From a virus, in the IMG/VR virus record IMGVR_UViG_3300043419_000594, positions 1 to 37,962 of that record: a DNA stretch of 37,962 bases. One strand, written 5' to 3'. This document shows positions 16,801 to 31,400 of the stretch, piece by piece. Within the stretch, counting starts at the first letter, position 1; the number at the start of each line of letters is the position of its first letter. The notes under the pieces are model-generated. The model was given only the letters and a program-made list of their open reading frames with translations. It did not search any database and had not been told where the DNA came from. A program made the position numbers and the translations under genes.

Positions 16801-18042
16801 TTAGTTTTCTATTTGATAGCCGTCGTAAACTAAGAAATGATCTGTGTAGAACATGTCATACGGTTCGCAGTTGATAGATATAACCTCGTGTGCAATATCT
16901 GAAATGATTAGTTCAGTTATAGGTGTCCAAGTATTTGTGTCTGCAGACCACAACTGATCTGTATCCAAAAGTTCATTGCTTGGAACCATTCTAGCAATGT
17001 CATCTCTCTTTACAAGCATTGTGTGAGATCCTGAGTAAAATTCTCCATTTACAGATACAGACTGTGATGCCTGAGATGTTCCCAAACCAACAATTGTTGT
17101 TACCTTGTCAGGAACCATTGCAAGGTTTGCTGGGTCCCCTGTCCAATTTGCAACATCTTGTAGTGTAAAGTTCATTCCTAATCCAGGAATTTCTGTAGAA
17201 ACAAGTTGATCGCCTACCTTAAGGTTTGATGCCTGGGTATATCCTTCTGTAGTTAAAACTAGCGTATGAAGACTGATAGACTTGTAGTACGCTCCAAATG
17301 CTCCGAACGCACCAAATGCTCCGAATGCTCCGAAGGCACCAAACGCTCCGAAGGCACCAAATGCTCCGAAGGCACCGAACGCACCGAATGCACCGAAGGC
17401 ACCGAACGCACCGAATGCACCGAAGGCGCCAAATGCTCCGAATGCAGCAAATGTTGTAGTTACAGATCCTGAAGGAGAGGATGTTGCTGAATTACCATTA
17501 GCATTTGTAGCATACACAGTGTATGTCTGTGCTGTTCCCTGCTCCTGTGAAAGACTTACAGAAGTTCCTGAAGTATCTCCAGACTTACCGTCATCAGATG
17601 CCCAGTGATAGTTGCTAATAGCCTTTCCACCATTTGCTGGTGCAGACCAAGAAACTGAGTCTGTTCCTGCTGATGGGGAAGATGCTGATGGGGCAGATGG
17701 CGTTGCTGGAACAGTCGTTGCAGTAATGCTATTGGATGAACCAGATGCTGAAGATGTTCCATACTGATTTGTTGCTGTTACTGTAAAAATATAATCAGTT
17801 GCTGATTGTAAACCAGTGACAGTGACAGGAGATGAGGACCCAGTGCCTGTATATCCTCCAGGAGAAGATGTAACAGTGAAAGATGTTGCCGCATTTCTTG
17901 GATCAGCAGTAAATGTTACTGTTGCTGCACCATTGTTATATGGGCGATTTGTTCCAACATCTGTTGCTGTTCCAATTGTTGGTGTGTATGGTGCCAAGAA
18001 GTCATTTGCTCCCTGACTCATTCTACCTGCTTGCTTTGACAT
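16801..18042 (-). CDS. FN3 / (FGA)n / Hint-domain virion protein
   Basis: This encodes 413 residues with an AGAGGAGA ribosome site. Residues about 20-195 form two fibronectin type III-like modules (AATSFTVTSSPGG and SVSWSAPANGGKAISNYHW). Residues about 200-251 are 17 perfect FGA tripeptides. From about 254 a Hint (intein/hedgehog-type) domain follows: block A SISLHTLVLTTEGY with Ser in place of the first Cys, LKVGDQLVS, a block-B-like YSGSHTMLV, and a final DHFLVYDGYQIEN ending in Asn at the stop codon. A self-processing step, such as cleavage or ester formation at the Ser, is possible. FN3 repeats point to display on the particle. Confidence 0.75.
   Translation of the reverse strand: MSKQAGRMSQGANDFLAPYTPTIGTATDVGTNRPYNNGAATVTFTADPRNAATSFTVTSSPGGYTGTGSSSPVTVTGLQSATDYIFTVTATNQYGTSSASGSSNSITATTVPATPSAPSASSPSAGTDSVSWSAPANGGKAISNYHWASDDGKSGDTSGTSVSLSQEQGTAQTYTVYATNANGNSATSSPSGSVTTTFAAFGAFGAFGAFGAFGAFGAFGAFGAFGAFGAFGAFGAFGAFGAFGAFGAFGAYYKSISLHTLVLTTEGYTQASNLKVGDQLVSTEIPGLGMNFTLQDVANWTGDPANLAMVPDKVTTIVGLGTSQASQSVSVNGEFYSGSHTMLVKRDDIARMVPSNELLDTDQLWSADTNTWTPITELIISDIAHEVISINCEPYDMFYTDHFLVYDGYQIEN
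17291..17443 (-). repeat. 17 tandem 9-bp units encoding Phe-Gly-Ala
   Basis: Seventeen back-to-back 9-base units (variants of gctccgaat and gcaccgaag on the plus strand) encode one FGA each. Units differ almost only at third codon positions, so the peptide is kept while the DNA drifts. Unit number is likely to vary through slippage. Confidence 0.9.
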
Positions 18043-18066: not shown

Positions 18067-19917
18067 TTAGGCTGAAAGGTCTCCGAAGACCAACCATCCA
18101 CCTGAAATTTTCATTGCTGTTACAACTGAGTAAGTTGTTCTGAACTTAAGTCCTGGTGTTCCAACAACGTTATTTGTTGAAGCAAATGAAGCACCTGTAC
18201 CAGAAGCCTGATAGAAGTCAATTGACTGTCCATTTGAATAACCACTTGCTGGAAGCGTAATTTCTACTGCTCCAGTTAGTGGAACAAACTTGTCTGCTTC
18301 TCCTGCTGCAAGTGTTGCTGATGATGAAATTGCTGTTGCAATTGTTGTAATAGATGGTACGCCAACCTTTGTTTGTGTACCGTCTGAGAATACGATTCCA
18401 GATGATGCTGTTACAGCACCTGAGAATGTTGGTGCATCTGCAACTGCAATTGTTGAGCCAGTTTTTGTAATGTTTGTACCAGCAGTTACTGCTTCAGAAG
18501 CATTAAACTGTGAGTAGTTAACATCTGTAGTTCCGATTGTAATGGCTCCTGTTGTGCTTAGGATAAATCCCTTAGCGGCATTAGTTGAACCTGATGTTAC
18601 AAAGCAGAAATCTCCAGTTGCAAGTTCTCCAGATGGGTTATTATCTGCATCTGCTGCACGAGTTATAACCCACTTTGCTGATGCTCCACCTACGTTAGTA
18701 ACTGTATAGATACCATTTTGTGCTGCAGTTGTTTGTGCACGAAGAAGAATTCTAGATCCAGCAGAAACTGATGCTCCGTCAATTGTTCCTATTGCACCAT
18801 TTGCAGATGCTGTAAGTGTTGCACCTAAACCATTTGTACCATTTTCATAAACTCCAGCAAGGTTGCCTGTTGTTGCTGCAACTACTGGCTGGTGGAAGTT
18901 AATTCCTGCTGCAAGACCATCAACATACTGCTTTGTTGCTGCATGAAGGTCTGATGTTGGTGCACCTGAAAGTGTAAGTGCTCCTGTCATTGTTCCGCCA
19001 GACTTAAGAAGTAGGTCTGCTGTATCTGCAATACCGTGAACAGATGTTGTATCTGATTGATGTGTTGAAACAGCACTATCTGCATATGTCTTGGTTGCAA
19101 CTGTACTATCAATATCAAACTGCTCTGTTAATGAGTTCCAGTCAATCCCTGTTCCTGCAAGTGCTGACTGGTCTACAGTAACACCATTAATAGCGTTTGT
19201 TAGATCTGTTTGTGTCACGAGAACTGATGTATCGGCGATGCCGTGAACATTAGTCTCATCAAGATTATGAGCAGAGACCTTATCGTCCGCTGCCTGTCCT
19301 GCTTCTGTAATTGCCTCTGTTTTTGCTGTAGCAATTGCATATTCCTGTGCTGAAGAAACTGGCTTGGCTGCATCTGATGTATCATCAACATTTCCAAGAC
19401 CGACAGAGGCCTTTGTAAGTGCTGCAACTGCAGATGAAACTCTATCTTCTGCTGCTGTGTTTGCTTGTGCAACTGCTTCTGACTTTGCTGTAGCAACATT
19501 TGCTGTAGTTGCAAGAAGTGAAGTATCTGCAATTCCATGGATATTTGTTGTGTCTAGTTTATGTTCTAGAAGAGCATCATTAAAGAAGTTGCTTGCTGCA
19601 GTAAGTTGTGTTTCACCATTAAGTACTACGTTATCAACTCTTTCATTTGTTGCCAATGCTGTTAGGAAGTCTGGGTTATCTCCTAGGGCTGCTGCTAATT
19701 CATTTAGCGTGTCCAACATTTCTGGAGCGCCATCTACTAGGGCTGCAAGTTCTGCTGCGTTAGCAAAATACTGTAGAGCAGACCATGCTGATGTTCCATT
19801 ACCCATCTTAAATTTATTTGTGTCGGTTTCAAAACCGATTTCACCTGCTGCTAAAACTGGATTTGCAGCCGTCCATTGGGCTGCAGTACCTCTGCGCTGT
19901 TGCATTCTTGTTGCCAT
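18067..19917 (-). CDS. Tail fibre with Mtd-N-like head domain
   Basis: This encodes 616 residues with AAGGAG before the ATG. The first 50 residues (MATRMQQRRGTAAQWTAAN, then GEIGFETDTNKFKMGNG) match the N-terminal domain of the major tropism determinant family, which attaches fibres to the tail. Next come three copies of a HxLDTTxxHGIADTS module (residues about 120, 215 and 290), then ATKQYVDGLAAGINFHQPV and a QTTAAQNGIYTV domain near residue 400, common in tail fibres. The C-terminal 100 residues should carry the receptor-binding or trimerisation part. No variable-repeat or reverse transcriptase gene is nearby. Confidence 0.8.
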   Translation of the reverse strand: MATRMQQRRGTAAQWTAANPVLAAGEIGFETDTNKFKMGNGTSAWSALQYFANAAELAALVDGAPEMLDTLNELAAALGDNPDFLTALATNERVDNVVLNGETQLTAASNFFNDALLEHKLDTTNIHGIADTSLLATTANVATAKSEAVAQANTAAEDRVSSAVAALTKASVGLGNVDDTSDAAKPVSSAQEYAIATAKTEAITEAGQAADDKVSAHNLDETNVHGIADTSVLVTQTDLTNAINGVTVDQSALAGTGIDWNSLTEQFDIDSTVATKTYADSAVSTHQSDTTSVHGIADTADLLLKSGGTMTGALTLSGAPTSDLHAATKQYVDGLAAGINFHQPVVAATTGNLAGVYENGTNGLGATLTASANGAIGTIDGASVSAGSRILLRAQTTAAQNGIYTVTNVGGASAKWVITRAADADNNPSGELATGDFCFVTSGSTNAAKGFILSTTGAITIGTTDVNYSQFNASEAVTAGTNITKTGSTIAVADAPTFSGAVTASSGIVFSDGTQTKVGVPSITTIATAISSSATLAAGEADKFVPLTGAVEITLPASGYSNGQSIDFYQASGTGASFASTNNVVGTPGLKFRTTYSVVTAMKISGGWLVFGDLSA

Positions 19918-22460: not shown

Positions 22461-22685
22461 TTAAAGAATATAGTTGCTGTAGCCAATTACCTGAAGTGGA
22501 ATTGCTGGGGTATTACCCAAACCAATAGCCTGTATTTGAATTGCTGTAAACTTAACTCTAAAAGGCAAAACTTCAGTAATTATGGTTTTCCTTGTAAAAT
22601 CCTCTATTTGAACTTCAGGATAGTCTATTGGAAATATGCTCTCAGTCTTACCCTTTATTGTATCTAGTAATACTGCTGTTGCCAT
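22461..22685 (-). CDS. Small hypothetical virion protein
   Basis: This encodes 74 residues. The ATG lies in a TAATG overlap with the BppU-like gene upstream, so the pair is co-translated. The beta-rich sequence has FTRKTIITEVLPFRVKF in the middle and ends GYSNYIL. No family was recognised; a small partner of the upstream appendage protein is likely. Confidence 0.5.
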   Translation of the reverse strand: MATAVLLDTIKGKTESIFPIDYPEVQIEDFTRKTIITEVLPFRVKFTAIQIQAIGLGNTPAIPLQVIGYSNYIL

Positions 22686-23095
22686 TAATCTGTTACATCT
22701 TCAAGAATCTTCATGCTACCCTGGCAAACTGTCCATACTCTTGTTGGGTCTGATACCTGAATATCAAAGATGTCTCCTGTTTGAAGTTGCACTGATTCTT
22801 CTGATGTTAGCCAAACTGTAAATTCTCCAACAAGATCGTCTTCATCTGCTACTGGAGTTAGAGTCAATACAAGTGTTGCATCATCTGTAATAATTCCTGG
22901 GGTAGTGTTTGGTCTTTTAACCTTCATAGAAATATCCCACTCTGAACCCTCACCTTTAAGAACTAAAGGCTGCTTTGCATCATCTGTTACATAAACTTTA
23001 AATCCTGAAGTATCTCCACGGACCACAGTCCAAATAACTATAGGAGGTTTATTTCCTATATCGTATGATGTTTGAGATCCTCTTAGATTTGCCAT
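22685..23095 (-). CDS. BppU-like N-terminal domain protein (paralog 1)
   Basis: This encodes 136 residues. The ATG at 23095 has no ribosome site and lies 6 bp after TGA-TATAAT. The chain matches the first Ig-like domain of phage baseplate upper proteins: IVIWTVVRGDTSGFKVYVTD, WDISMKVKRP, FTVWLTSEESVQL, FDIQVSD and a final GSMKILEDVTD. Two relatives occur in the window (28894-29334 and 31020-31400), which share RGDTS or KGDTF and a final DVTG or DQVTG. The fold usually links a fibre to the baseplate. Confidence 0.6.
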   Translation of the reverse strand: MANLRGSQTSYDIGNKPPIVIWTVVRGDTSGFKVYVTDDAKQPLVLKGEGSEWDISMKVKRPNTTPGIITDDATLVLTLTPVADEDDLVGEFTVWLTSEESVQLQTGDIFDIQVSDPTRVWTVCQGSMKILEDVTD

Positions 23096-24342: not shown

Positions 24343-24354
24343 TAGTAAAACTAA

Positions 24355-24389
24355 AGGCACCTATTGGGAAACCCTAGTAGGTGCTTTTT
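24355..24389 (+). terminator. Intrinsic terminator after muramidase gene
   Basis: Stem GCACCTA/TAGGTGC with an inner GGG-AAA-CCC hairpin, followed by TTTTT on the plus strand. It starts 13 bp after the stop codon. The minus strand also carries a weaker T-rich tail, so it may act both ways between the convergent genes. Confidence 0.8.
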
Positions 24390-24963
24390 AGTTTCTTAAA
24401 ATTAAATTGATTGCTGCTCTTGGAGCCTTGATTGTTTCTACCTCATGGGCTAGATTTTTAGGAACAAAGATAAAATCACCCTCTACTACATGATATTCAT
24501 TTTCTAGGTTTTCTCCTGTGCGCCAAATCATCTCACCCTTAACTACCCACTGAAATTGATCAACATAGTCTCTATGCTTGCTTCCGACAACACCTCTATT
24601 TTTCATGAGAGAGACTAGGGCAAAGTTACCTTGATAGATATCTGATGAATATTCAGACAACCCCCACTCTGTTACTGGTGCCAACTCTGGAATTATTGAC
24701 ATGTATAAATCTTTCGGATCAAAGAGTTGAAACGCCATCCTTGACCAAAACCTACACTTTAGTCTCATATCAGAAGACTCGCCCTCAACAAAATCATTTA
24801 AAAGGTATGACCTATCTGGAAACTTCTCTAAGTCTTCATCGACATACTGAGAAACTACTGACATTATTGTATCTAGTGATGGAAGGTCTGTAAAGACGTC
24901 TTTAAAAATATGTATTCTGTTTTCATCTATAGCCTGCTGAACTATTGACATATCTATCTTCAT
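24388..24963 (-). CDS. Cupin-fold protein
   Basis: This encodes 191 residues from the ATG in an ATGA overlap with the upstream hydroxylase gene. The C-terminal half is a cupin/JmjC-type barrel: KHRDYVDQFQWVVKGEMIW with H130 and D132, EYHVVEGDFIFVPKNLAHEV with H173, then PRAAINLILR. The HxD...H arrangement could bind Fe(II). Coupling to a prolyl-hydroxylase-like gene suggests related chemistry or a shared substrate. The N-terminal 100 residues are helical and not recognised. Confidence 0.65.
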   Translation of the reverse strand: MKIDMSIVQQAIDENRIHIFKDVFTDLPSLDTIMSVVSQYVDEDLEKFPDRSYLLNDFVEGESSDMRLKCRFWSRMAFQLFDPKDLYMSIIPELAPVTEWGLSEYSSDIYQGNFALVSLMKNRGVVGSKHRDYVDQFQWVVKGEMIWRTGENLENEYHVVEGDFIFVPKNLAHEVETIKAPRAAINLILRN

Positions 24964-25556
24964 CTTAACCAACTCACAACCGCATACCTTGTTCCTTCTA
25001 CAACTGGCAGTACTGAATGATTATATACATAATTTGATGGGAACAAAAGTAGTTCATTTGCTTTTGGTTTATATGTTATTCCGAACCTTGGAAAACATAT
25101 TTCTCCACCAGTATAATCATCGTTAATATAGTATACCAAAGATATTCTTCTATGGTAATCTTTATGGTCATCAACATGGTTTATAAACTTTTGACCCTTG
25201 CCATATTTTAAAATGCTATATCCATCATGCCATACCGTATCTAGACTATACTCTGCTTTATAATCAAACTCTATTGGGCTAAATGCTGAAAGAAATATAT
25301 TTGATAAACTTGATGAAAATGCATCAGATAGGTCTGAATAGTTTTCAATAATATTCTCATTATATGGTATATGGATAGTCATTGTATCTCTGTAATCTGT
25401 GTCTATTTTTACCGTATCTCCTCTTTTAATCGATGATGGAGACCAGTCTATCCGTGCACTGACCATGCCCTCTTCAATATCAGAACTAAGAGTAGAATAA
25501 CTTTCAATTACATCTGAGTAAACAAATATTCCTGGTGCCAATTCTTTTTTATTCAT
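24960..25556 (-). CDS. Prolyl-4-hydroxylase-like 2OG-Fe(II) oxygenase
   Basis: This encodes 198 residues from the ATG at 25556 in a TAATG overlap with the upstream Zn-ribbon gene (AGGA precedes it). The catalytic core is complete: NHVDDH supplies H127 and D129, RRISLVYYINDDYTGGEICF follows, then PKANELLLFPSN, H180 in YNHSVLPV and R190 in GTRYAVVSW, ten residues later as needed for 2-oxoglutarate binding. This matches small bacterial and viral prolyl hydroxylases. The (TPAV)n fibre and collagen-like proteins upstream are likely substrates, though another target is possible. Confidence 0.85.
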   Translation of the reverse strand: MNKKELAPGIFVYSDVIESYSTLSSDIEEGMVSARIDWSPSSIKRGDTVKIDTDYRDTMTIHIPYNENIIENYSDLSDAFSSSLSNIFLSAFSPIEFDYKAEYSLDTVWHDGYSILKYGKGQKFINHVDDHKDYHRRISLVYYINDDYTGGEICFPRFGITYKPKANELLLFPSNYVYNHSVLPVVEGTRYAVVSWLR

Positions 25557-25795
25557 TACCATTTTCCTAACGGACATGTTGCCAACTCTAGTTTAGTTTT
25601 TGCAAACATAAAACATCCACACTTCTTACATTGTTTTGTTAACTTTATTAGTTCTGGACAAGCCAAGCATGTTTGATATCTTGCCTCAGCCAATTCTGAG
25701 TCTACCTTTTGTGTTTTTGGATTTGCCAAATCCCATGGTCTTGTTTCTCCAAGATTTTGCTTATACTTTTCCCAAGCACTAAGGTTTTCTGACAT
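25556..25795 (-). CDS. Zn-ribbon protein upstream of hydroxylase
   Basis: This encodes 79 residues, with AAAGGA upstream. The C-terminal half has YQTCLACPELIKLTKQ, then CKKCGC and a final Cys (ATCPLGKW), a zinc-ribbon pattern (CxxC...CxxCxC...C). The fold recalls DUF6171-type proteins seen near 2OG oxygenases in T4-like cyanophages; this comparison is from memory. Translational coupling to the hydroxylase points to a common function, possibly substrate recruitment. Confidence 0.65.
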   Translation of the reverse strand: MSENLSAWEKYKQNLGETRPWDLANPKTQKVDSELAEARYQTCLACPELIKLTKQCKKCGCFMFAKTKLELATCPLGKW

Positions 25796-25800
25796 TAAAA

Positions 25801-26172
25801 CTATTCCTTTATTAGAACTTGTGGATTACTAGAAAGAGCCGCAATTGTCATAGCATTTTCTTCTGAGTCTACTACTCCATAAAAGAATTTATATTTTTGA
25901 TCAACTAAAAATGCAAATTTTTTATCTTGGACTTTAGACTCTTGAATGTCTATTACGTCTCTATTTTCAGCATCAATAAAGTCTGATCCGTCCCACTCTG
26001 AATCTAGATATGGAATATAGGTTAGGTGAGTCATGTCGACTACAGATGGGTCAGAACTTAAAACATTAAACAATTCCAACTCTTGCTCATTAACAACATT
26101 TCCATCATTATCTGTTTCTATATAAAGAAAATCTAATAAATCTTTATCTATTTTTAATACAAATTGTGCCAT
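25801..26172 (-). CDS. Hypothetical protein
   Basis: This encodes 123 residues with AAGGAG before the ATG and an extended -10 promoter upstream. The chain is acidic (Asp and Glu rich) with strands such as MAQFVLKIDKDLLDFLYI and KKFAFLVDQKYKFFYGVV. No signature was recognised. It is the first gene of the unit with the Zn-ribbon, hydroxylase and cupin genes, so it may belong to the same system. Confidence 0.55.
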   Translation of the reverse strand: MAQFVLKIDKDLLDFLYIETDNDGNVVNEQELELFNVLSSDPSVVDMTHLTYIPYLDSEWDGSDFIDAENRDVIDIQESKVQDKKFAFLVDQKYKFFYGVVDSEENAMTIAALSSNPQVLIKE

Positions 26173-26189
26173 TTTTTCTCCTTTAAATT

Positions 26190-26198
26190 AGTATATCA
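26190..26198 (-). promoter_or_regulatory. Extended -10 promoter of hydroxylase gene unit
   Basis: TGA-TATACT on the minus strand, 17 bp before the ATG at 26172, with AAGGAG in the leader. Confidence 0.55.
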
Positions 26199-26208
26199 TA
26201 AAATATTT

Positions 26209-28275
26209 TTATGCACAACCATAAGGGTCTGTCTGGCTTGCACAGGCACCGCAACCATTTGCATCATAGTATGAGTAGATTGCTGCCCATCCAGCACAAA
26301 CATAGTTTCCTGTTGGCTGACAGTTTGGAGTACATGCAGGTGTGACTGCAGGTGTTACAGCAGGTGTGACTGCAGGGGTAACTGCTGGTGTCACTGCTGG
26401 TGTTACAGCAGGTGTTACTGCTGGGGTAACTCCTGGGCAAGTATAAGACTCTGCTCCAGTACATGGATTTACATAAATTGCTACGGATCCTCCACATGCT
26501 GAGCGATACTCAGTATATGAATAGACTGGTGTACAGTCTGGTGGTGTTACAGCAGGGGTAACTGCTGGTGTGACTGCAGGTGTTACAGCAGGTGTGACTG
26601 CAGGGGTAACTGCTGGTGTTACAGCAGGTGTTACGCTACATGCTGGAGGTCTAGATGGTGTTCCAGGATAAGTTACCTGAGAACACTCTGTGTGATAATT
26701 TTCACACACATTCGCAGTATCGTCTGTAGAAGATTCATACTGCTCTACTGGTAGTCCATTAATATAATATTTGGTTGTGCAATACCAAGTTGTGGCAGGT
26801 GTAACAGCAGGTGTTACAGGTGTAACAGCAGGTGTTACAGGTGTTACTGCAGGTGTTACAGGTGTAACAGCAGGTGTTACAGGTGTCACTGCAGGTGTTA
26901 CAGGTGTCACTGCAGGCGTTACTGAAGCATATGGGTTAGTACATGAACTAGGAACTCCACAGATAGCAACAATTTGCTGATCTGTTAGACTTGGATTAGT
27001 AGTTATTCCTTGATTTATACTATATCCAGAACCTGCTGCAGGGTAGTCATCTTGCCCATTATTTCCTGTATATGCAATTGATAGTGAGTCTGAGAATCCA
27101 TTACATAATACATAAATCTTATATGATGTCGCTGGTGTTACTGGTGTTACTGTTCCTGAACCACCACAACTTACAGCATTTGCTTCTAATAGATTTCCAA
27201 AGCGATCAAATGTTGGCTGTGTACAAATTTCGTATGAACCATCAGAACAGGTCTTTCTTGTTCCAACATATATTCCTTCATAAGAATCTTCTCCGTTGCA
27301 TGTTGGCTGGATAACCTCGTATGATTCACATGATCCACAATTTACTGGTGTTACGGGTGTTACTGGAGTTACGGGAGTTACTGGTGTTACTGGTGTTACT
27401 GGTGTTACTGGAGTTACTGGTGTTACTGCAGGAGTTACATCAGGTGTTACTGCAGGAGTTACATCAGGTGTTACTGCAGGAGTTACGGCTGGGGTTACTG
27501 CTGGGGTAACTGCTGGGGTAACAGAACTTGCTCCTTCATAGATGTCTCCATACAAAACCCATGTATCAGTTGAAACTTTTACAAGTGTTCCTTTACTGTA
27601 CTGCCCATCTAAAAATAGTTGGGAATTCTTACTTCCAACAACTACGCCAGAGCCTGGAGAAAATGTTGTTCGTCCTGTTCCAATTTCAATAAAATTATAT
27701 TGATATCCAACTGGTATTGCAACTGAAGAATTTGACGGAATTGTTAAAGTCATTGGAGAAGAAGTATTTAAAAGAATAGTTTTATTTACATCTGCTTCTT
27801 CTAGGGTAAATGAAGAACTTTTTGTTATTGCTGTTGAAAAATTTAAAATCTTAGGTTCAATATCAAATCTTTCATCAACAGAATTCCAGTCAATTCCGTT
27901 TCCAGCAAGATCTGAGTATGCTCCTGTTGCTCCATTAATGGCATTTGTAATTCCTGTATCTACGTAAGATTTAGTTGCTAAGAGAGAAGTGTCTGCTATA
28001 CCGTGGACATCTGTGGTATCTGCATTATGTGTTGAAATAGCAGAATTTCTATTTGTTATCTCTGCAGCATCTGCATCTACAAGGTTTTGAAGGTGCTTTG
28101 CAATAGATGGATTTACAAGGTTTGCAGCATTTGTATTAGCGCCGTCGTACGTATATGATCCATAGTGGTAAAGTCTTAGTGCTGCCTGAATATCTGCTGC
28201 ATCTGAAAGACCAGGGACTTTGGTAGGGAAAAGACCAGTACCATTAACGGTATTATCAATATTTTCTGCTGCCAT
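26209..28275 (-). CDS. Tail fibre with (TPAV)n proline-rich repeats
   Basis: This encodes 688 residues with GGGTGA before the ATG. Residues about 1-130 form a fibre attachment region; TTDVHGIADTSLLATKSYVD and LAGNGIDWNSVDERFDI are shared with the Mtd-N fibre. Residues about 130-250 form a beta domain. From about 250 there are four runs of TPAV/TPV repeats (near 251-312, 451-494, 547-579 and 615-647) separated by Cys-rich knots (CGSCESYEVIQPTC). The end is Cys rich (GCGACASQTDPYGCA). Such threonine/proline stalks are often glycosylated or hydroxylated, and a prolyl hydroxylase gene lies just downstream. Confidence 0.7.
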   Translation of the reverse strand: MAAENIDNTVNGTGLFPTKVPGLSDAADIQAALRLYHYGSYTYDGANTNAANLVNPSIAKHLQNLVDADAAEITNRNSAISTHNADTTDVHGIADTSLLATKSYVDTGITNAINGATGAYSDLAGNGIDWNSVDERFDIEPKILNFSTAITKSSSFTLEEADVNKTILLNTSSPMTLTIPSNSSVAIPVGYQYNFIEIGTGRTTFSPGSGVVVGSKNSQLFLDGQYSKGTLVKVSTDTWVLYGDIYEGASSVTPAVTPAVTPAVTPAVTPDVTPAVTPDVTPAVTPVTPVTPVTPVTPVTPVTPVTPVTPVNCGSCESYEVIQPTCNGEDSYEGIYVGTRKTCSDGSYEICTQPTFDRFGNLLEANAVSCGGSGTVTPVTPATSYKIYVLCNGFSDSLSIAYTGNNGQDDYPAAGSGYSINQGITTNPSLTDQQIVAICGVPSSCTNPYASVTPAVTPVTPAVTPVTPAVTPVTPAVTPVTPAVTPVTPAVTPATTWYCTTKYYINGLPVEQYESSTDDTANVCENYHTECSQVTYPGTPSRPPACSVTPAVTPAVTPAVTPAVTPAVTPAVTPAVTPPDCTPVYSYTEYRSACGGSVAIYVNPCTGAESYTCPGVTPAVTPAVTPAVTPAVTPAVTPAVTPAVTPACTPNCQPTGNYVCAGWAAIYSYYDANGCGACASQTDPYGCA
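26336..26432 (-). repeat. (TPAV)n tandem repeat block 4
   Basis: Consecutive 12-base units encode TPAV, near the 3-prime end of the fibre gene. Units vary at third codon positions. Confidence 0.85.
26540..26635 (-). repeat. (TPAV)n tandem repeat block 3
   Basis: Consecutive 12-base units encoding TPAV between two Cys-rich knots. Confidence 0.85.
26794..26923 (-). repeat. TPAVTPV tandem repeat block 2
   Basis: Alternating TPAV and TPV units, giving a 21-base higher-order period on the minus strand. Confidence 0.85.
27343..27523 (-). repeat. TPAV/TPDV/TPV tandem repeat block 1
   Basis: The longest block. TPAV and TPDV units come first, then TPV units in a 9-base period. Three repeat types side by side suggest expansion by slippage. 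Confidence 0.85.
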
Positions 28276-28293
28276 TATAAATCACCCTGTTTC

Positions 28294-28302
28294 ATTATAC
28301 CA
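28294..28302 (-). promoter_or_regulatory. Extended -10 promoter of (TPAV)n fibre gene
   Basis: TGG-TATAAT on the minus strand, 18 bp before the ATG at 28275, with GGGTGA in the leader. The TAA stop codon of the upstream gene (28295-28297) lies within the TATAAT. Confidence 0.65.
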
Positions 28303-28891
28303 CCGTAATAAAAAGATGAACATATTTTTCGCCAGTCATTGGCACCCATGCTCCATCTAGATACTCTACGCCTTCTATTTCAAGTGGTAGTGCAATAAAA
28401 CCTTGTGTTGTGTCTATATCTTTTATGATTAGGTTTGTTGCCAATGGTCCAGCACTTTCTAAAGAAGATATAGAGTATTGAACAGTAAATCTTGACGAAC
28501 TGACAGTTCCCTCTGATATATCATATATGCTTGCAAGGTTTATTGGAGAAATAGTCAACTTACCATTTACTGGGGTTAATGGTCCTTTAGTCTCTGAATA
28601 AAAATTTGACTTTAAACTTATAAGAGGAGTCCACTGAGTACCGCTTGGTGTTGCTACATTCTGAAAAACTGTTTTATATGTTTCTGAACTTGGGCTATAG
28701 TCTATTGCTATATCTAGTGCTTGTATATCTTGAGATATTGCATTAGAAACACTTGATTCTCTTGGATCGCCTTGAACACCAACAATAATACTGCCACGGT
28801 CTCCAGTTGGTCCAAAATCTAGATCAAGACTTATTGTTTCTGGTCCACCAAAAATTGTTAAATCATCATTAGATAGAAGTATGTCTGCCAA
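28295..28891 (-). CDS. Virion structural protein with short collagen-like motif
   Basis: This encodes 198 residues from a TTG at 28891, with CTGGAG 7 bp upstream; the gene starts 2 bp after the previous stop. The N-terminal FGPTGDRGSIIVGVQGDP is a short Gly-X-Y-like element. The rest is beta-rich (KLTISPINLASIYDISEG, FTVQYSISSLESAGPL) and ends in ...TVV. It lies between the BppU-like protein and the (TPAV)n fibre, so an appendage role is likely. Confidence 0.55.
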   Translation of the reverse strand: MADILLSNDDLTIFGGPETISLDLDFGPTGDRGSIIVGVQGDPRESSVSNAISQDIQALDIAIDYSPSSETYKTVFQNVATPSGTQWTPLISLKSNFYSETKGPLTPVNGKLTISPINLASIYDISEGTVSSSRFTVQYSISSLESAGPLATNLIIKDIDTTQGFIALPLEIEGVEYLDGAWVPMTGEKYVHLFITVV

Positions 28892-28893
28892 GG

Positions 28894-29334
28894 CTATGCT
28901 CCAGTTACCTGATCAGTAATTGTTATCTTGCCAGTTAAAAGTGTGTGGACGAGAGAATAAGATTCTGGGTTTCCTGCAGTACCTGCTGGCTTTACTACCT
29001 CTACGTCATATACATATTCTGTTCCAGCAACAAGAGTTGTTGAGTCTTCTGGTCTGATTGCACACCTAACATGAGTTCCATCATCCCAAATTCTTGCATA
29101 GCAGTCTACTTTATTTGCTACACCTGCAGTTCCTCTTGCTGTAGAAATTGTAAACCTTGCACTATCATATGGGGCTACAGTGTCTGTGACATTATCAATA
29201 GTGCTAGATGTGTTTGAAGCAATCTGATAAGAAGAAAGATTGAATACTGTGCCATCATTTTTTTTCGGGTATATACGAAACTCAAAGGTGTCACCCTTAT
29301 AGTAGTTAAAATCATAGGTCGCTGGAAATGCCAT
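28894..29334 (-). CDS. BppU-like N-terminal domain protein (paralog 2)
   Basis: This encodes 146 residues. The ATG at 29334 is preferred over an upstream in-frame start because TGG-TATAAT lies 6 bp before it. The chain fits the baseplate-upper-protein Ig-like fold: YDFNYYKGDTFEFRIYPKK, FNLSSYQIAS, ARFTISTARG, VYDVEVVKPAG and a final GKITITDQVTGA. It is a relative of 22685-23095 and 31020-31400. It probably connects collagen-like appendages to the tail tip. Confidence 0.6.
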   Translation of the reverse strand: MAFPATYDFNYYKGDTFEFRIYPKKNDGTVFNLSSYQIASNTSSTIDNVTDTVAPYDSARFTISTARGTAGVANKVDCYARIWDDGTHVRCAIRPEDSTTLVAGTEYVYDVEVVKPAGTAGNPESYSLVHTLLTGKITITDQVTGA

Positions 29335-29340
29335 GTTTTT

Positions 29341-29349
29341 ATTATACCA
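29341..29349 (-). promoter_or_regulatory. Extended -10 promoter, leaderless spacing
   Basis: TGG-TATAAT on the minus strand, 6 bp before the ATG at 29334. The upstream gene ends inside it (GTG GTA TAA). Confidence 0.7.
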
Positions 29350-30073
29350 CGCTGACATAGACAGAATTGAAAAATACGGTTGAATCAAAGTCTGTTCTAA
29401 TTTGAGGAACTGCCCCACTTGTCCACATAGTCTTATCCTCAATAAATATGTTCTGTGTTACTGATAAGTTATAGGTATTCTGATATTTTAGAGAACCCAC
29501 AAACTGTACAAATTCTTGATCTTTTCTCGCAAAATAGGTCCTTAGCCAAACCTCTGTATTTGGTGTATATGTTGTTAGTTCAAAGTTGTAGGTTATAAAT
29601 ATCTGAGAGCCTTCCTTTATTCCGTGAAAATTAAGGGCTCTTTGATGACTATTCCAAAGACTGGTGCAGCCTTTAGGAAGGTACTCTTCATTTTGTAACT
29701 TATCTTTTGTATCTAGAATGAGAGTGACCCAACCATCGTCTCCTTGAGATATTCCAAGTTTTATTTGTTTGTCAAGAGCATTTGTATATGAGGCCCATCC
29801 TGATTGCTGTCCTGAAGAAGATAATGAACTGACACCATCCTTACCTGCTGGTCCTTGGGCACCTCTTGGACCTGGCTTTCCTTCTGGCCCTTCTGGTCCC
29901 TCTTTACCATCCTTGCCATCTCTACCTGCTGGTCCTTGTGGTCCAACTGGGCCTGGCACGGGAAGAAACGACAAAGTGTTTTCTGTTATTCCAGTTGCTT
30001 GGCTTTGCTCTACTTGTGCAGCATAAGAAGATTTTTTTGCATTAGGAAATTCCATAGATTTAGAGGTAGCCAT
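29342..30073 (-). CDS. Collagen-like virion protein
   Basis: This encodes 243 residues with no ribosome site; the ATG is 6 bp after TGA-GATAAT. Residues about 38-78 hold about 13 Gly-X-Y triplets (GPQGPAGRDGKDGKEGPEG and on), rich in charged X and Y residues, which should form a triple helix. A beta-rich C-terminal domain (WVTLILDTKD, QIFITYNFELTTYTP, FVQFVGSLKYQNTYN) follows and likely trimerises. The phage also encodes a prolyl hydroxylase, which could modify Y-position prolines such as the one in GKP. Confidence 0.8.
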   Translation of the reverse strand: MATSKSMEFPNAKKSSYAAQVEQSQATGITENTLSFLPVPGPVGPQGPAGRDGKDGKEGPEGPEGKPGPRGAQGPAGKDGVSSLSSSGQQSGWASYTNALDKQIKLGISQGDDGWVTLILDTKDKLQNEEYLPKGCTSLWNSHQRALNFHGIKEGSQIFITYNFELTTYTPNTEVWLRTYFARKDQEFVQFVGSLKYQNTYNLSVTQNIFIEDKTMWTSGAVPQIRTDFDSTVFFNSVYVSVV

Positions 30074-30079
30074 GATGAC

Positions 30080-30088
30080 ATTATCTCA
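30080..30088 (-). promoter_or_regulatory. Extended -10 element, leaderless spacing
   Basis: TGA-GATAAT on the minus strand, 6 bp before the ATG at 30073, with no ribosome site. The first base of the hexamer differs from TATAAT. Confidence 0.5.
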
Positions 30089-30095
30089 TCTTATT

Positions 30096-30659
30096 TTATA
30101 AACCAATTTGATGAATAGTTAAAATTACTGACGGAACTGCTGGATGACCCATAGCAGTCAGAACATACTCAATATGAGTTGAAGCACTTGTTGATGACCA
30201 AATCAACTCATAGTAATCTCCTGCAGTTGCTTCAACAAAAAAATTCCATGATGCAACATAATATGGATTATTTGCTGTTATATCAAACTTTGTATTTGAA
30301 TTAGGGACATCTGTTCCATTTTTTCTAAGCCAAAGGTTTACAGTTCCAGAACTATTACCTTGGTGCATTTGAAGAGAGAACTGAATATTATATCTACCAG
30401 TCGTTAATATCTTTAATCTAGATGGATTAGTTGTTCCGCCATTTGCATCTTGCATAACAATGCCATGGTTAAAATCAACTGTATTGCAATAAATAGACTG
30501 AATAGAGTTTGCTGTTCCAGTCTGAGTAGTTAAATCATAAAAAGATCCATACTGCATAGCAGCAATTGCTTCTGCTGGATCTCCCTGATCACCTTTTGGA
30601 CCAGTTGGTCCCTGTGGTCCAGGAACACCATTAGCGTCTGGACTGGTAAATCTTGACAT
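30096..30659 (-). CDS. Collagen-like appendage protein with C1q/TNF-like head
   Basis: This encodes 187 residues, starting in a TAATG overlap with the upstream gene. About six Gly-X-Y triplets (GVPGPQGPTGPKGDQGDP) at residues 12-29 lead into a beta-sandwich (YNIQFSLQMHQGNSSGTVNL, WLRKNGTDVPNSNTKF, YVASWNFFVEATAGDYYELI), the layout of C1q/TNF-like trimers such as those found in phage head fibres. Y-position prolines occur in GVP and GDP. It likely forms short fibres that bind the host surface. Confidence 0.75.
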   Translation of the reverse strand: MSRFTSPDANGVPGPQGPTGPKGDQGDPAEAIAAMQYGSFYDLTTQTGTANSIQSIYCNTVDFNHGIVMQDANGGTTNPSRLKILTTGRYNIQFSLQMHQGNSSGTVNLWLRKNGTDVPNSNTKFDITANNPYYVASWNFFVEATAGDYYELIWSSTSASTHIEYVLTAMGHPAVPSVILTIHQIGL

Positions 30660-30934: not shown

Positions 30935-31020
30935 TTTTTACCTACCTTGAATATTTTTGTTTTAATCTTAATAACTGCTGGAAGTTCAGGTCTCGGAGTG
31001 GATGTTCTTACTACTGCCAT
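30931..31020 (-). CDS. Very small protein between appendage genes
   Basis: This encodes 29 residues (MAVVRTSTPRPELPAVIKIK and nine more). It is overlapped at both ends: TAATG with the upstream BppU-like gene and ATGA with the next gene. Such exact coupling and a basic, Pro-containing sequence argue that it is translated. The function is unknown; it may only pass ribosomes along. Confidence 0.55.
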   Translation of the reverse strand: MAVVRTSTPRPELPAVIKIKTKIFKVGKK

Positions 31021-31400
31021 TAAAGACTCCCAGTTACATCGCCAATAACAGAGACTGTTCCAATAACTGGTGTCCATGTTATTTCATTATCAATAACTAC
31101 TTGTAGGTCAAAGATTAATTCAGCAACCATACTTTTATATCCTGTACCCCAAAGTTCTGTAATTGAAGATGGAGCCATAATATCAACATATCCATTTCCA
31201 GGTGTAACTTCTAATTCATCTAGAAAATCTGTTTTTGAATCATAGGTAGTTGCTTTATATGTCCAGCCAGATGTATCAAAATAAGTTATTTCGTCATCTT
31301 CTAAAAATTCAATTCTAAGTGGAGAGGTATCACCTCTTACAACACTCCATTTAATATGAGCAGGATCTGCTCCAAATACTTCTGGTCCACACATAGTCAT
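31020..31400 (-). CDS. BppU-like N-terminal domain protein (paralog 3)
   Basis: This encodes 126 residues. The first ATG is at 31400 and a second is two codons later; TATAAT ends 7 bp before the first, and AGGA lies 8 bp before the second. IKWSVVRGDTSPLRIEFLED, WTYKATTYDSKTD, GYVDIMAPSS and a final VSVIGDVTGSL match the Ig-like domain of baseplate upper proteins and resemble 22685-23095. It is the first gene of the appendage block. Confidence 0.6.
   Translation of the reverse strand: MTMCGPEVFGADPAHIKWSVVRGDTSPLRIEFLEDDEITYFDTSGWTYKATTYDSKTDFLDELEVTPGNGYVDIMAPSSITELWGTGYKSMVAELIFDLQVVIDNEITWTPVIGTVSVIGDVTGSL

Follow-up and report, generated by a model that had tools for sequence, protein, structure and literature searches.

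Gene organization of the locus

The 38-kb window (the whole stretch of 37,962 nucleotides analysed here) comes from an actinobacterial tailed phage. It is part of a larger phage genome; contigs of relatives extend up to ~115 kb. A single tight gene run within it encodes a tail fibre, a probable chaperone, a DUF6171 zinc-ribbon protein (Zn79), a prolyl-hydroxylase-like enzyme (P4H) and a cupin, and ends at a terminator:

26209–28275, minus strand: tail fibre, 688 aa (PHROG virion structural, minor tail and tail fibre families)
25801–26172, minus strand: probable fibre chaperone of 123 aa, assigned solely on its WDGSDF motif
25556–25795, minus strand: Zn79, 79 aa, DUF6171/phrog_13558, zinc-ribbon-like, proposed adaptor; overlaps the P4H start
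24960–25577, minus strand: P4H, 2OG-Fe(II) prolyl-hydroxylase-like, 205 aa (PF13640, HxD..H..R, structure model)
24388–24963, minus strand: cupin-fold protein (PF07883, E = 6.9e-6, slightly under the cut-off)
24353–24388, no strand: bidirectional terminator-like hairpin with a 16-bp stem, closing the gene run

Junctions inside this cassette are small or overlapping; the cupin start codon, for example, overlaps the P4H stop (ATGA). The first-pass annotation placed the enzyme ∼0.7 kb downstream of the fibre, and the gap is indeed 0.63 kb, with two small genes inside. A family search with the 123-aa protein gave no usable match; its homologues occur in 7 of the 71 cassettes compared below. The cupin scores 26.1 bits against a Cupin_2 cut-off of 27.2, and matches JmjC_2 at E = 0.07. 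Its residues H130, D132 and H173 are conserved, and no match was found among isolated phages. We propose that it may carry out a second modification step.

The fibre begins with an N-terminal virion domain, followed by VTPA/VTPV blocks that alternate with Cys-rich modules. Four TPAV/TPV blocks had been noted earlier, in agreement with the 47 VTP units that we find spread over four zones:

27343–27522, minus strand: repeat block 1 (VTPAVTP... then VTPVTPV...), aa 252–311
26794–26922, minus strand: repeat block 2, aa 452–494
26542–26634, minus strand: repeat block 3, aa 548–578
26335–26430, minus strand: repeat block 4, aa 616–647

Because 15 different DNA nonamers spell the VTP units, the repeat is kept at the protein level and is no fresh microsatellite.

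The P4H enzyme

By family and fold, P4H groups with the protein prolyl hydroxylases, and that activity is predicted for it. It matches PF13640 (2OG-FeII_Oxy_3) with E = 4.7e-17 and 63.2 bits against a cut-off of 27. The enzyme is complete, as first described, and its catalytic residues H134, D136, H187 and R197 (numbered from the first ATG) are those originally listed as H127, D129, H180 and R190, counted from the internal Met8. Among 41 relatives the first three residues are invariant and R197 is present in at least 90%. The structure model (pLDDT 94) aligns in VIA-align with Z-scores of 19.7 to 4iw3 and 3gze and ∼18–19 to PHD2; Foldseek and VIA-align together group it with an algal P4H that takes (Ser-Pro)5 as its substrate, PHD2 and bacterial P4H. 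Neighbours of the clade, by both structure and sequence, carry prolyl-hydroxylase names. A PiuC identity (PKHD-type, PRK05467) was rejected, the NCBIfam equivalog scoring 36.3 bits of the 143 needed. Every P4H relative from isolated phages is <60% identical.

Co-variation of P4H with the fibre repeats

We found 79 viral loci with P4H relatives, most of which have a Pro-rich repeat fibre nearby where the contig extends that far. Together with a P4H dN/dS of ∼0.09–0.17, this recurrence indicates that the pairing of P4H and fibre is not due to chance. In 71 related loci, a fibre with Pro repeats occupies this site and is followed by exchangeable enzymes. The bearers of this exchangeable fibre-side cassette are uncultured viruses of freshwater bacteria.

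Across these loci, P4H divergence correlates with repeat composition (Mantel r = 0.45, p = 0.0005), a signal that rests on few independent events because the VTP type switches only ∼3 times on the P4H tree; an independent-pairs test had too few pairs. Conditioned on five other genes or segments, the correlation is r = 0.50. The repeats are not tracked by the pre-fibre gene, the collagen gene, lysozyme, Zn79 or the 90 aa preceding the repeats. The VTP class, in which VTP accounts for at least 0.68 of tract prolines, takes in each of the 17 loci that carry the window-type set (P4H plus cupin/GT61). One further VTP-class locus has P4H without the cupin, and all remaining loci stand at 0.35 or below.

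An adjacent 2OG oxygenase accompanies 62 of 66 Pro-rich fibres vs one of five low-Pro fibres (Fisher p = 0.0003). With the second 2OG family left out, P4H alone shows no significant association with Pro-rich fibres (p = 0.15), since that family replaces P4H; ∼18 Pro-rich fibres lack P4H. The second family gave no match to a PDB sequence profile and was recognised only through structure (Foldseek, TM ∼0.56) and a conserved HxD...H.

A second fibre follows the same rule, its Pro tracts going with 2OG genes. At loci that are not phylogenetically independent, a Pro tract is followed within 1.5 kb by a 2OG gene in 20/20 cases, vs 3/11 without a Pro tract (p = 2e-5). The window's own copy serves as a natural negative control:

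16801–18042, minus strand: second fibre, carrying a (GAF)n tract; no 2OG gene follows

Exchangeable enzymes and putative glycosylation

Enzymes occupying the slot among the 71 loci include P4H, the second 2OG oxygenase, GT60, GT61, a sugar epimerase and fucosyltransferase-like genes. GT60 (PF11397) is the hydroxyproline/threonine GlcNAc-transferase family. Alternative slot enzymes match protein-glycosylation families (PF11397, E = 3e-35; PF04577, E = 5e-14), and GT60 shares cassettes with P4H in relatives such as L202, L248 and L290. Zn79 also adjoins alternative first enzymes and is fused to GT60 in three loci (L185, L274 and L278); the cupin is fused to GT61 in four (L004, L015, L032 and L173). 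A sulfotransferase guess for L044:8944–9753 received no backing from Pfam.

The first-pass suggestion that the stalks are perhaps glycosylated is supported for the relatives' fibres, judging by the many that carry GT60, GT61 or other transferases. This support does not extend to the window: no GT60 lies beside its P4H, and Pfam searches of the other large ORFs found no glycosyltransferase in the 38-kb fragment. Elsewhere in 12 larger relatives, no PF00535 glycosyltransferase scored above the cut-off.

Alternative substrates and explanations

The earlier proposal of hydroxylated stalks pointed to the fibre and to two collagen-like genes near the enzyme:

29342–30073, minus strand: collagen-like virion protein, 14 Gly-X-Y (PF01391, 31.1 vs 27.2 bits)
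30096–30659, minus strand: weak collagen-like protein, 6 Gly-X-Y (PF01391, 16.9 bits, below the cut-off)

The gene assignment thus holds for the former and falls below threshold for the latter, and neither protein is probably the substrate. A collagen substrate, as in animals, is suggested by the 4–5 kb that separate these genes from P4H and by the isolated cyanophage ACG-2014f, where a collagen gene has a P4H-like gene and a glycosyltransferase as neighbours. We consider it very unlikely and rejected it, as proline sits mainly at X (7/14 vs 1/14 at Y in 29342–30073; 341 vs 59 of 805 triplets overall), the collagen gene is kept in 17 of 21 loci without P4H, and collagen divergence shows no correlation with the repeats (r = 0.06). 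Operon layout, co-variation and the second fibre point instead to the proline repeats of the fibre. Within the fibre, another residue might be hydroxylated, or threonine might receive mucin-like O-glycans with P4H secondary. GT60 takes in Thr-directed mucin-type enzymes (PMC8724618), L214 pairs a Thr-rich fibre with GT60, and three TP-rich fibres have only the Zn79-GT60 fusion, with no oxygenase found. Against these stand the window, in which no GT60 was found, and the prolyl-hydroxylase names of P4H's neighbours, and we regard this route as unlikely, if the least so of the alternatives.

P4H could also act on a host protein such as EF-Tu, its adjacency to the fibre reflecting chance or shared expression. 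The best structural match (Z 19.7) is the Pseudomonas putida P4H crystallised with EF-Tu, on which that enzyme reportedly acts. A host target would predict neither the co-variation of P4H with the repeats nor Pro-rich fibre adjacency recurring at two separate loci, and we give it little weight. Similarly low odds attach to P4H and repeats hitch-hiking as one recombination module with no functional link. The repeat type has switched independently only a few times, so linkage as a single module retains some small probability despite the Mantel result; yet Zn79, which lies between the two, fails to track the repeats, as does the domain ahead of them in the fibre gene itself, and the second fibre obeys the same rule.

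Proposed mechanism

Our preferred reading, to which we assign a probability of roughly 0.7, is that the cassette at 24388–28275 modifies the virion, with P4H hydroxylating VTP prolines of the fibre and the other genes assisting. Gene identity at the family and fold level, gene order and co-variation are established here. Gene order and co-variation make the VTP repeat the likely P4H substrate. During infection, P4H would use O2, Fe(II) and 2-oxoglutarate to hydroxylate VTP prolines of the fibre encoded just upstream. Zn79 probably joins enzyme to fibre, and the cupin may perform a further step. The hydroxylated, extended and probably polyproline-II blocks would form stiff, protease-resistant stalks linking the Cys-rich modules. 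In many relatives, hydroxyproline or the adjacent Thr would then be glycosylated, a step drawn from the glycosyltransferases occupying the same slot. P4H activity, its substrate, the adaptor role of Zn79 and the mechanical purpose are what we infer.

Relation to known systems

The P4H of the algal virus PBCV-1 (vCPH, 5c5t) is likewise a viral 2OG-Fe(II) enzyme with the same fold (Z 16.7). It is described as turning Pro-containing peptides into Hyp-containing ones, and amino-acid analysis of PBCV-1 virions detected no hydroxyproline (PMC7019647), a result that counts against the hydroxylated-fibre reading. The window P4H, by contrast, lies next to a virion fibre with Pro repeats and co-varies with it. 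In the Skp1 pathway of Dictyostelium and Toxoplasma, the P4H PhyA is followed by a GT60 GlcNAc-transferase and further sugars, and relatives' cassettes similarly combine P4H, GT60 (PF11397) and other transferases. However, Skp1 is a cytoplasmic protein with its glycan at one Hyp, whereas the phage fibre has tens of repeats and the window shows no GT60. A plant pathogen has a dual-function P4H/GlcNAc-transferase (cited in PMC8724618). Plant and green-algal Hyp-rich glycoproteins (AGP/extensin) share TP/AP/VP-type repeats and a P4H (3gze) that binds (Ser-Pro)n, but the present case is a bacterial virus with cytoplasmic assembly, and transferase families differ except for GT61.

Actinophage glycosyltransferases have been tied to virion glycosylation in mycobacteriophages (Freeman et al. 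2023); the passages covered here link them neither to prolyl hydroxylation nor to Pro-repeat fibres. Cyanophages encode 2OG-Fe(II)/PiuC-like genes. That of ACG-2014f (∼31% identical to the window P4H) adjoins a glycosyltransferase, a collagen protein and a short tail fibre, with no P-rich fibre within the stretch examined; in other cyanophages the gene is not fibre-adjacent. Our partial coverage of the literature yielded no account of a P4H/fibre cassette.

P4H genes are among the commonest auxiliary genes of pelagic viruses, occurring in 62% of water samples with a use described as 'cryptic' (PMC9301287). The cassette offers a concrete substrate for such an enzyme and would move it from 'auxiliary metabolism' to virion maturation. 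More tentatively, many aquatic actinophages might make hydroxyproline-based, O-glycosylated, mucin- or extensin-like fibre stalks through swappable, repeat-matched cassettes of adaptor, oxygenase and transferases. If phages do build Hyp-rich, sometimes glycosylated fibres, then host recognition, stability and phage engineering would be affected, and small soluble P4H and Hyp/Thr glycosyltransferases would come paired with known repeat substrates. Such fibres would be a bacterial-virus counterpart of the Hyp-rich glycoproteins.

Cassette layout and fibre repeats

The 2OG-Fe(II) prolyl-hydroxylase-like enzyme (P4H) is encoded in a cassette behind a fibre gene:

26209–28275 (−), fibre, first gene of the cassette
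25801–26172 (−), 123-aa protein with a WDG motif
25556–25795 (−), Zn79, a 79-aa DUF6171 zinc-ribbon-like protein
24960–25577 (−), P4H
24388–24963 (−), cupin

Gaps of 36 nt and 5 nt separate the fibre from the 123-aa gene and the latter from Zn79; Zn79 overlaps the start of P4H, and the stop codon of P4H shares the sequence ATGA with the start codon of the cupin. A terminator-like hairpin with a 16-bp stem follows the cupin, facing a convergent lysozyme gene. From this tight, terminator-closed layout we infer that the cassette genes are co-transcribed. The fibre contains 47 VTP units in four repeat zones with Cys-rich modules between them, and PHROG matches to virion structural and tail families cover its N-terminal half. 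Fifteen different DNA words spell these units, which indicates that the repeats are kept at the protein level.

The window, a 37,962-base IMG/VR virus record, belongs to a tailed phage and also encodes a portal, a head protease, a capsid protein and a ribonucleotide reductase. Its host is most likely a freshwater actinobacterium, because Streptomyces phage capsid proteins are ∼43% identical to its own, its ribonucleotide reductase shares 62% identity with the counterpart in Actinomycetia phage DSL-LC01 (Dishui Lake), and an Actinomycetota MAG contig is the sole match among cellular collections. Near the fibre region lies a complete cytochrome P450 (33157–34341(−), PF00067, E = 7e-52; 85% homologue in the related locus L002); among NCBIfam models it comes closest to biosynthetic P450s, well short of every cut-off. 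The N-terminus of the protein at 18067–19917(−) matches the major tropism determinant N-terminal domain (Mtd_N, PF18454, E = 5e-15), and three phrog_1084 paralogues (function unassigned) lie among the fibre genes (22685–23095, 28894–29442 and 31020–31400, all −).

The P4H enzyme and its neighbours in related loci

The window P4H matches PF13640 (E = 4.7e-17) and evolves under purifying selection (dN/dS ∼0.09–0.17). Among 41 relatives, H134, D136 and H187 are invariant and R197 nearly so. At Z 19.7 each, the closest structural neighbours of its AlphaFold model (pLDDT 94) are the Pseudomonas putida P4H with EF-Tu and an algal P4H with (Ser-Pro)5, followed by PHD2, a Dictyostelium PHD and PBCV-1 vCPH. 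Nearly all matches in a PDB sequence-profile search were named as prolyl hydroxylases, with a few PKHD-type proteins (PiuC and relatives); the enzyme scored below the cut-offs of the NCBIfam PiuC models.

Searches found 79 viral loci with P4H relatives, and once anchors on two flanking genes were added, 71 distinct loci spanned the slot. The order is nearly always a Pro-repeat fibre, small proteins, Zn79, at least one enzyme and the opposite-strand lysozyme gene. P4H is present in 50 of the 71. A second 2OG family (36 copies) carries an HxD..H motif and a predicted 2OG-oxygenase fold (pLDDT 95); members scanned had no Pfam match. Other residents are an NAD-dependent sugar epimerase (PF01370), GT60 (PF11397, E = 3e-35), GT61 (PF04577), weak O-FucT/NodZ-like proteins, radical SAM/SPASM proteins, FkbM methyltransferases and SGNH-like genes recognised by motif only. 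Two kinds of fusion occur: Zn79 with GT60 in L185, L274 and L278 (for L185, Pfam confirms DUF6171 + GlcNAc), and GT61 with the cupin in L004, L015, L032 and L173. They indicate that the enzymes are functionally linked. In isolated phages, DUF6171 lies directly downstream of fibre/adhesin genes in three of five examined, and not in the other two. A WE-YK motif like the Zn79 start recurs in N-terminally extended cupins (L005, L006, L017, L178), possibly as a shared docking peptide.

Fibre repeats or collagen as candidate substrate

The first-pass annotation proposed hydroxylated, perhaps glycosylated, tail-fibre stalks, with TPAV and Gly-X-Y peptides as candidate substrates of P4H. Across 26–29 dereplicated loci, repeat-composition distance tracks P4H distance (Mantel r = 0.45 and 0.44, p = 0.0005; partial r = 0.46 and 0.50), the weight of this p being limited by a small effective number of events, since the VTP class needs 3 changes on the P4H tree versus 14.3 when shuffled. 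In the same test, neither the gene preceding the fibre, collagen, lysozyme, g23108, g22685 and Zn79 nor the 90 aa of the fibre directly before the repeats correlated with repeat composition (|r| up to 0.06). VTP repeats (0.68 or more) occur in all window-type P4H + cupin/GT61 loci, and PTP, PAP or VAP types in the rest. Either 2OG family accompanies 62 of 66 Pro-rich first fibres versus one of five low-Pro ones (p = 0.0003; p = 0.0024 with two near-identical loci merged); for P4H alone, the association with Pro content in these fibres gave p = 0.15.

Relatives carry up to ten 2OG genes, many in one island after a second fibre. Where that fibre has an (FFP)n tract, one to nine P4H-like genes follow, within 1.5 kb in 20/20; where it lacks a Pro tract, a 2OG gene follows in 3/11 (p = 2e-5). 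In the window, the second fibre (16801–18042(−)) carries a (GAF)n tract and is not followed by a 2OG gene. Its order is an fn3-like domain, the tract and a C-terminal domain resembling a Hint/intein fold, and it may be self-processing; a similar C-terminus in L164 weakly matches Hint_2. Tandem islands of 6 to 10 2OG oxygenases stand right behind the second fibre in L314 (2139–8237), L315 (1875–10542) and L316 (1682–8609).

Animal collagen P4H acts on the Y position of Gly-X-Y. In 805 collagen-like triplets, Pro occupies X in 341 and Y in 59 (7 and 1 of 14 in the window gene); collagen is thus a poor candidate, and the collagen half of the proposal is not supported. The fibre half fares better: P4H–repeat co-variation and the second-fibre rule make the Pro repeats the probable P4H substrate, with a probability of roughly two in three.

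Hydroxylation and glycosylation

We found no published description of a P4H/fibre cassette in the literature searched. Viral P4H use has been termed cryptic (PMC9301287); the PBCV-1 enzyme is active on peptides, and Hyp was not detected in PBCV-1 virions (PMC7019647). GT60 includes both the Skp1-hydroxyproline and the mucin-type Thr GlcNAc-transferases (PMC8724618). One GT60 locus (L214, 1893–4643) has a low-Pro, Thr-rich, mucin-like fibre (PAPTTTTT), and no oxygenase was found there. In cyanophage ACG-2014f (L318, 1025–6513), genes for a collagen-like protein, a methyltransferase-like protein, a glycosyltransferase and a P4H-like PiuC are consecutive, followed by a short tail fibre.

Virion glycosylation is already known in actinophages (Freeman et al. 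2023). As to the further suggestion that the stalks are perhaps glycosylated, domain and family searches found no glycosyltransferase in the window itself, whereas in its relatives the gene families (GT60, GT61) and fusions support glycosylation.
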